The translations under genes and the position numbers were made by a program. From Candidatus Desulfofervidaceae bacterium (GTDB lineage: Bacteria; Desulfobacterota; Desulfofervidia; Desulfofervidales; Desulfofervidaceae), in the NCBI GenBank assembly GCA_027038965.1, contig JALWFG010000005.1, forward strand, positions 124,001 to 188,000: a DNA stretch of 64,000 bases, written 5' to 3'. Positions within the stretch are counted from its first letter, which is position 1. Every line of letters begins with the position of its first letter. The notes under the pieces were generated by a model. That model was given only the letters and a program-made list of their open reading frames with translations, had not been told where the DNA came from and ran no database searches. Below, piece after piece: positions 31,487-33,712 of the stretch.

Positions 31487-33032
31487 ACGCAACGGCCCGT
31501 TTTTCCCTGATTACCGATACCTTAATCTGTCCTGGATAAGTCATTTCTTTCTCAATTCTTTTGGCCACTTCATGGGCTAAAAAGGCAATGTCCTCATCCC
31601 CTACAAGATCACTTTCTACAATGATTCGCAACTCACGACCTGCTTGAATGGCATAAGCCTTGCTGACACCCTTAAAACTTTGAGCGATTTCCTCCAAGTT
31701 TTGGAGTCGCTTAATATAAGATTCAAAGGTTTCCTTTCTGGCCCCAGGACGGGCTCCAGAAAGGGTATCTGCAGCAGAAACCAAAATGGCAAGGATAGTC
31801 TCTGGTTCTACATCTTCATGGTGGGCTGCTATAGCATGCACTACTTCTTCTGGCTCACCATATTTTTTGGCCAAATCGGCTCCAATAAGGGCATGGGGAC
31901 CTTCAACCTCATGGTCTACGGCCTTGCCGATGTCATGAAGCAAACCTGCCCTTTTAGCCAGTTTGGGATCCACTCCCAATTCTGAGGCCATAATGCCACA
32001 TAAAAAGGCCACCTCTACCGAATGCTGTAATACATTTTGGGCATAGCTAGTCCGATATTTAAGTTTTCCTAATAACTTTATCAATTCTGGATGAATACCA
32101 TGAACCCCTACATCAAAACAGGCCTGTTCTCCTGCCTCTTGAATAGCCTCCTCCAACTCTTCAGTTACTTTATCAACTACCTCTTCAATTCTGGCTGGAT
32201 GAATCCGCCCATCAGCAACCAGTCTTTCTAAGGCCATACGGGCGATCTCTCGCCGTATAGGATTGAAACCAGAAACAATTACCACCTCAGGCGTATCATC
32301 AATAATCACATCCACCCCTGTAGCAGCCTCTATGGCCCGAATATTCCTTCCTTCTCTACCAATAATTCGACCCTTCATCTCTTCATTAGGTAAGGAAACA
32401 ACTGAAACTGTCCTTTCTGCTACGAACTCACCAGCGTATCTATTAACTGCTAAAGCAAGTATCCGCTGAGCCTTCTTATTTGCCTCTTCCTTGGCTTGCT
32501 CTTCTATTTGTTTGATCATTTTGGCGGCTTCATGTCTTGCCTCTTCTTCAACCTGCTTAAGCAAAACCTCTTTTGCTTGTTCGGTGCTCATTTGAGCAAC
32601 CTTTTCTAAGGTTTCCCTTTCCTGCTTGATAAGAAGTTCGTAATCCTTTTTCCTCTCTTCTATAGCCTTTTCTCGACTGATCAATTCCCGTTCTCTGGCA
32701 CTCAAAATCTCTTCTTTCTTTTCCAGATTGGCAAGTTTTCGGTCTATCTGTTCTTCCTTTTGCAAGAGCCTGTTTTCAAGCCTTTTTAAGTCTCTCCTTT
32801 TCTCCTTTGTTTCACGCTCAAAGTCCGAGCGCATTTGATATAAAAGTTCCTTTGCCTGATTAGACGCATCCTTCTTAATTTGTTTTGCCTCTTCTTTGGC
32901 TTCGGTAAGAATCCGATTGGCTTCTTCTTTGGCTGAAGTAATGTCTTTTTTATAAAAGAAGTGTTGCAAGAACCAAACAATCCCCCCACCAACAATCAAA
33001 CCAATAAGGCCTGTCAAAGCATATTCGAGCAT
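31476..33032 (-). CDS. rny: Ribonuclease Y
   Basis: Membrane-anchored endoribonuclease that initiates mRNA decay, 518 residues. N-terminal transmembrane segment (residues 4-22), long coiled coil (25-200; [20 protein letters not shown]..), KH domain ([19 protein letters not shown]) and HD domain ([10 protein letters not shown].., [20 protein letters not shown]). All domains complete. GAAGGGAG precedes the ATG by 6 nt, and the large hairpin RNA at 33056-33223 ends about 24 nt upstream of the start, so it may form part of the rny leader. Confidence 0.96.
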
Positions 33033-33055: not shown

Positions 33056-33223
33056 GTAGGGCAAAGAGGTAAACAACAAAGGTAGGCTAAAAAGACACAT
33101 CTATTGGGGGCCACTACACCCTTTCAAAAAACTACCACTAGAGCTGTATTCAACTGCCCTGAGTAAACCCTCTGAAAGCAGTGACCCATTTATATTTAAA
33201 AAGTTTATTCACCTTTGCCCTAC
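33056..33223 (-). ncRNA. Structured RNA / 5'-leader element of rny (novel candidate)
   Basis: A 168-nt segment whose ends form a long closing helix: GTAGGGCAAAGGTGAATAAAC (33223-33203) pairs with GTTTACCTCTTTGCCCTAC (33074-33056). Inside, GGGTCACTG (33187-33179) pairs with TAGTGGCCC (33116-33108) and the adjoining CTTTCA with TGAAAG (33178-33173 with 33126-33121). The region has no open frame and lies between 6S RNA and rny. I recognise no known riboswitch or RNA family. It may be a separate small RNA or a regulatory leader of rny. Confidence 0.6.
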
Positions 33224-33249
33224 TTTTAAAATTATTTTATATTTTTAAA

Positions 33250-33424
33250 CCCCGCAGTGCCGTGTCGGCAGACTTTTTTGAACCTGTCTCCCGACAGGTG
33301 GGCACTCCTTAGTCCTTTCTGGCTTTTTACCCCGAGGGGTAAACATGCCATCCAGAACCAGAGGGAGTTCCCAAGGGTTTCAATGTCGGCCCAAAATTGC
33401 CTACCGATCACGCACACCGCAGGA
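33250..33424 (-). ncRNA. ssrS: 6S RNA
   Basis: About 175 nt that inhibit sigma-70 RNA polymerase by mimicking an open promoter. Closing stem CCTGCGGTGT / GCACTGCGGG joins the two ends; inside are the conserved 6S segments CTTGGGAACTCCC and GGACTAAGGAGTGCCCACC either side of the central bubble, and an apical TTTACCCCTCGGGGTAAA hairpin. Position just downstream of zapA is the classical ssrS location. The 5' stem is encoded within the last codons of zapA. Confidence 0.82.
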
Positions 33425-33712
33425 AGCCTCTTTCAAACAATTATCAACCAAACTTATTAATTGTCTGGCTTTCTCTTTAACCTCTCTTTCAAAAGCCAGC
33501 TTATTCTCTTTTACTTCTACATATTCGCTTGTAATATTAAGTGCCGTTAAAAGGCTCACCGTTGTCCTATCTTTAAATGGCCTCTGGGCTTGAATTTTAC
33601 TTAAATATTCATTAACCAATTCTACCACTTTTTGCATTCGCTCGCTAGGCTCGTTTGTTTTAATGGTAAACTCTCTATCCATTAACTGAACAGTAAAAAC
33701 CCTTTCTCCCAT
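33401..33712 (-). CDS. zapA: Cell division protein ZapA
   Basis: A 103-residue ZapA that bundles FtsZ filaments at the Z ring. N-terminal beta domain (VFTVQLMDREFTIKTNEP), then a long C-terminal helix (residues 30-95) used for dimerisation. The frame continues into the 5' strand of 6S RNA (last residues SCGVRDR); an overlap of 23-24 nt. Three bases separate it from the upstream zapB-like gene. Confidence 0.88.
   Translation of the reverse strand: MGERVFTVQLMDREFTIKTNEPSERMQKVVELVNEYLSKIQAQRPFKDRTTVSLLTALNITSEYVEVKENKLAFEREVKEKARQLISLVDNCLKEASCGVRDR

Follow-up and report, generated by a model that had tools for sequence, protein, structure and literature searches.

Self-controlling leaders of RNase genes have arisen repeatedly, in rne, rnc, pnp and Bacillus subtilis rny. 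In the leaders of Escherichia coli pnp and rnc, a double-stranded structure is processed by RNase III, leading to autocontrol. In B. subtilis, rny is autoregulated partly via a 164-nt leader that is cut by RNase Y, as one published study describes (PMC10303841). The enzyme favours AU-rich, weakly structured sites in this organism, and in cggR-gapA and glnRA a hairpin downstream of its cut stabilizes the product and sets its abundance; the substrates of B. subtilis RNase III include long-range duplexes of 10-36 bp (PMC11780869). The E. coli pnp and rnc (rncO) leaders are cited for autocontrol in PMC3997798. E. coli 6S RNA, for its part, is co-transcribed with a downstream gene, ygfA (PMC2848244). 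The element described below would add one more leader of this sort, in a thermophilic lineage of sulfate reducers and directly after 6S RNA.

A stem between 6S RNA and rny

The window, the whole 64,000-nucleotide stretch of Candidatus Desulfofervidaceae DNA that was analysed, belongs to a genome with the minus-strand order zapB - zapA - 6S RNA - element - rny - ymdB - tyrosyl/tryptophanyl-tRNA synthetase gene (Table 1). The encoded RNase Y is 88% identical to that of the nearest named record, a Ca. Desulfofervidaceae MAG, which types the genome as Ca. Desulfofervidaceae, Thermodesulfobacteriota. The element itself occupies 33223-33056 on the minus strand, starting 21 nt past the end of the RF00013 match, which excludes it; 23 nt separate its end from the rny ATG at 33032. 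An earlier note on this DNA had recognized the neighbours as 6S RNA and RNase Y and had placed a hairpin 24 nt before rny; family and domain searches identify the same two neighbours, and the coordinates given for the hairpin are exact.

Table 1. Features of the 6S RNA-rny interval and its flanks, in window coordinates
Feature	Coordinates	Strand	Basis and remarks
zapA, upstream gene	33401..33712	-	PF05164 1.4e-15
6S (SsrS) RNA	33245..33428	-	RF00013, 89.2 bits vs gathering score 46.4; 5' end overlaps zapA end
Linker, AU-rich, from 6S 3' end to P1	33224..33253	-	Sequence, terminator scans, folding; candidate endonuclease cleavage region
P1 closing stem, 5' arm GUAGGGCAAAGGUGAAUAA	33205..33223	-	Duplex energies, hand alignment
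P2 inner helix, 5' side GGGUCACU	33180..33187	-	Pairs with 33108-33115; genus level only
P2 inner helix, 3' side AGUGGCCC	33108..33115	-	Pairs with 33180..33187
P1 closing stem, 3' arm UUGUUUACCUCUUUGCCCUAC	33056..33076	-	Duplex energies, hand alignment
rny Shine-Dalgarno AGGGAG, outside P1	33040..33045	-	Sequence
rny, RNase Y, 518 aa	31476..33032	-	PF12072 RNase_Y_N 2.3e-58 + KH + HD domains

The hairpin is real. Folded on the minus strand, the element reaches -56.0 kcal/mol (z -3.24), which 1 of 200 shuffles equalled, and the plus strand folds more weakly (-38.7 kcal/mol, z -1.74); the corresponding elements of three relatives give z-scores of -2.45 (G001), -4.73 (G002) and -4.08 (G003). The two ends of the element are joined by a closing stem, P1, made of 7-9 outer pairs and 7-10 inner pairs separated by a small asymmetric internal loop. 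The window's own genome has about 19 such pairs, interrupted on the 3' side by a 2-nt bulge.

What lies inside P1 is far more variable. The earlier note had described nested helices, of which the closing stem stands and P2 recurs in the congener G001, with one-sided changes that keep the pairs; the smaller inner helices do not extend beyond the genus and may be fortuitous. Only the window's own element and that of G001 can be aligned through the interior, where conservation stops at the genus, while G002 and G003 contain other small hairpins and length across the four ranges from about 139 to 177 nt. As the interior is not conserved, selection appears to act on the stem and not on the sequence it encloses. 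The same variability bears on the idea of a stable small RNA, some 170 nt long, excised from a 6S-rny transcript and acting in trans: in its favour, P1 encloses most of the interval in a compact, closed structure, but the interior and its length behave like a spacer and no terminator follows P1, and we regard this reading as quite improbable. A leader peptide was rejected by eye, the short interior frames differing between relatives.

Conservation and covariation of P1

The class sample comprised six genomes, and four of them, all Desulfofervidaceae (the window's own genome, G001, G002 and G003), carry the element, in one copy per genome by BLAST and covariance model. In G004 the rny match is incomplete, and an RF00013 search of that genome returned no 6S RNA, which was found in G001, G002, G003 and the sister-family genome G005. 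P1 keeps its position in each of the four Desulfofervidaceae whose sequence is usable, ending 16-23 nt before the ATG, and its pairing persists through compensatory changes, an outcome on which the earlier note had made its hairpin depend.

When the four sequences are aligned by hand with the structure as guide, every genome has standard pairs at the 7 outer positions and at the first 7 inner ones. Four inner pairs (3, 4, 5 and 7) have changed on both sides; for instance, G-C has become U-A and U-A has become G-C in G002, and G-C has become A-U in G003. The window's own genome, G002 and G003 also have G-U pairs, and these are retained only on the transcribed strand. Since the two sides of P1 have changed together in evolution, the stem is real, and the two-sided changes in four inner pairs together with G-U pairs in three genomes argue for selection on an RNA of the rny-coding strand. 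Conservation is highest in the asymmetric internal loop and in the outer stem, where GURGGGC faces GYCCUAC.

Such an alignment, of four sequences and guided by structure, leans toward structure. Native arm duplexes, at -26.6 to -33.1 kcal/mol, beat 2000 of 2000 shuffled 3' arms in each of the four genomes, in a test that takes the arm positions as given. When G002 exchanges inner arms with the other genomes, most of the inner-stem energy is lost, native values between -8 and -12.5 kcal/mol weakening to roughly -4 to -6; between the window's own genome and G001, where the arms are nearly identical, the swap costs nothing. An automatic alignment misplaces G003 by one base and so recovers only three two-sided changes, which is not significant against column shuffles (93/500), although pairing in it falls from 92% to 53% or less when the partner is slid. 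Our conclusions rest on the alignment made by hand and on the duplex energies. A simple helix score separated the real helix poorly from shuffles except in G003.

A long terminal inverted repeat around a variable middle is also what a relic of a mobile element of MITE or REP-like type would leave behind. The single copy in the window's own genome, where such elements would be dispersed, led us to reject a mobile repeat, and the orthologous position in three genera, the compensatory changes and the G-U pairs confined to one strand point the same way, leaving this reading extremely unlikely.

Beyond the class sample, a covariance-model search of 198 genomes of the phylum scored only the four known members and none outside the family, with the stricter filters of large searches, which lose weak matches. 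At a permissive threshold Rfam gave, besides 6S RNA, only chance-level matches in the element (E 2.3 and 2.9) and none to the rne5 leader, in keeping with the earlier note's statement that it recognized no known family. The element is thus covariation-supported, family-restricted and absent from Rfam, a structured RNA lying directly upstream of an RNase gene.

The surroundings of rny vary elsewhere. G005 lacks the stem, and about 60 nt separate its 6S RNA from rny; between the two sits a very small hairpin, GAAGU..ACUUC, with CCUACUU after it (L033, about 500-555), perhaps a reduced or ancestral version of the element. Several other Desulfobacterota have 6S RNA farther away from rny, and at L040 the gene is directly preceded by a frame with the motif LGYGKGYYDR, which we take to be 5-formyltetrahydrofolate cyclo-ligase. 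Adjacency of 6S RNA and rny recurs outside Desulfofervidia, in a Candidatus Eisenbacteria MAG (L077, 2275-2501) where 6S RNA ends at 2456 and the rny match starts at 2501. Three further MAGs (L061, L067 and L069) share a similar motif upstream of rny, at a distance of about 150 nt and around AAGCCGTGTTGCGA..GGGCGGATAATTTTC; it has no Rfam match and could be a further structured leader of the gene.

Possible roles in the rny transcript

How might such a stem serve the gene that follows it? The likeliest reading, to which we give an even chance, is that the element acts in cis, as a structured leader of the rny transcript and an intercistronic processing element within it, and is no separate gene, with P1 probably controlling either the cutting of a shared transcript or the lifetime of the RNase Y message. 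Terminator scans of the transcribed strand between 6S RNA and rny found no terminator-like site in any of the four genomes, which makes read-through from 6S RNA into rny plausible. Taken with the AU-rich linker followed by P1, the B. subtilis precedents and the RNase genes encoded, this leads us to prefer a stem that acts in cis on processing and stability. Besides RNase Y, the window's own genome encodes two RNase E/G genes (G000:C13:74352-75161 and G000:C11:233069-233875) and an RNase III gene.

We infer co-transcription, cleavage and feedback, in the following form. Transcription from the 6S (or zapA) promoter would continue into rny. An AU-preferring endonuclease, either RNase Y or an RNase E/G homologue, could then cut the linker, which would free 6S RNA for 3' trimming and leave an rny mRNA with P1 near its 5' end as a protective stem. 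Alternatively, RNase III could cut P1 itself, whose length of about 19-28 pairs falls within the 10-36 bp of its B. subtilis substrates, a necessary but insufficient property. By either route the amount of rny mRNA would come under the control of an RNase, and the sequence does not discriminate among RNase Y, RNase E/G and RNase III for that part. Autoregulation by RNase Y, one of the two readings in the earlier note, is suggested by analogy; the specific proposal that RNase Y cuts the linker, matures 6S RNA and sets its own mRNA level, tying 6S output to RNA-decay capacity, seems to us unlikely. Were cleavage to occur, 6S maturation would be linked with RNA-decay capacity; were it not, a covariation-supported RNA element missing from Rfam would still stand.

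Folding of the whole 6S-element-rny transcript bears on the processing stem. In the window's own genome P1 faces competing pairings at 37 C, with a mean pairing probability of 0.28, which counts against that role; at 60 C it is favoured (0.77), and 81% of the linker's last 20 nt is unpaired. In the three relatives P1 is favoured at both temperatures (0.86-0.93). Also against a processing stem, G005 does without the element, and a promoter-like site at the 3' end of G001 6S RNA would permit a separate rny transcript.

That site, CTGACA-16-TAGAAT (L030, 1264-1291; 10/12 matches), would start transcription just before P1, and it invites a different account in which rny has a promoter with its -35 in the 6S end and its start in the linker, so that P1 caps the mRNA and slows decay without 6S co-transcription. 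The precedent of B. subtilis rny, with its own leader of similar length, is in line with this. Promoter scans, however, found no such site in the window's own genome or in G003, whose linker of about 14 nt has no -10-like hexamer, and none at that position in G002; we hold an independent transcript to be rather unlikely.

A Shine-Dalgarno switch, in which removal of the 5' arm would let the 3' arm hide the Shine-Dalgarno, looked promising in three of the four species and was rejected: shuffled 3' arms were at least as occluding in 127, 149, 102 and 51 of 200 cases in the four species, and since they hide it about equally well we claim no switch. This result, with the lack of a match to any known riboswitch or leader family, weighs against P1 as a site where a protein or ligand would regulate translation or transcription of rny independently of RNase cleavage. 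That conservation peaks in the outer stem and internal loop speaks for such a site; even so, we consider it improbable.

Comparison with known leaders

For the earlier note's idea of RNase Y autoregulation, B. subtilis rny is a closer precedent than rne, being the same gene with a leader of similar length. RNase Y cuts that leader and feeds back on rny mRNA; the strongest cuts there fall in the first 50 nt, structure is noted at the ribosome-binding site, and neither a long P1-type stem nor an upstream 6S RNA is described in the portion of the study drawn on here (PMC10303841). The element resembles cggR-gapA and glnRA in having an AU-rich, weakly structured stretch ahead of a hairpin, which in those operons stabilizes the downstream product; their hairpins, however, are short, local and placed between protein genes, whereas P1 is a long-range stem behind a structural RNA. 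The likeness to pnp and rnc is one of general description, an RNase-gene leader with a double-stranded structure, which in those two is processed by RNase III. The rne leader (Rfam rne5) likewise is a structured leader of the gene for the main decay-initiating endonuclease, although of a different enzyme and with no match at the permissive Rfam threshold. As in E. coli ssrS-ygfA, 6S RNA lies upstream of a protein gene, here rny; we know of no equivalent stem in ssrS-ygfA. In kind, then, the element is ordinary, a structured RNase leader or processing stem, and what is new is its anatomy and its place after 6S RNA.
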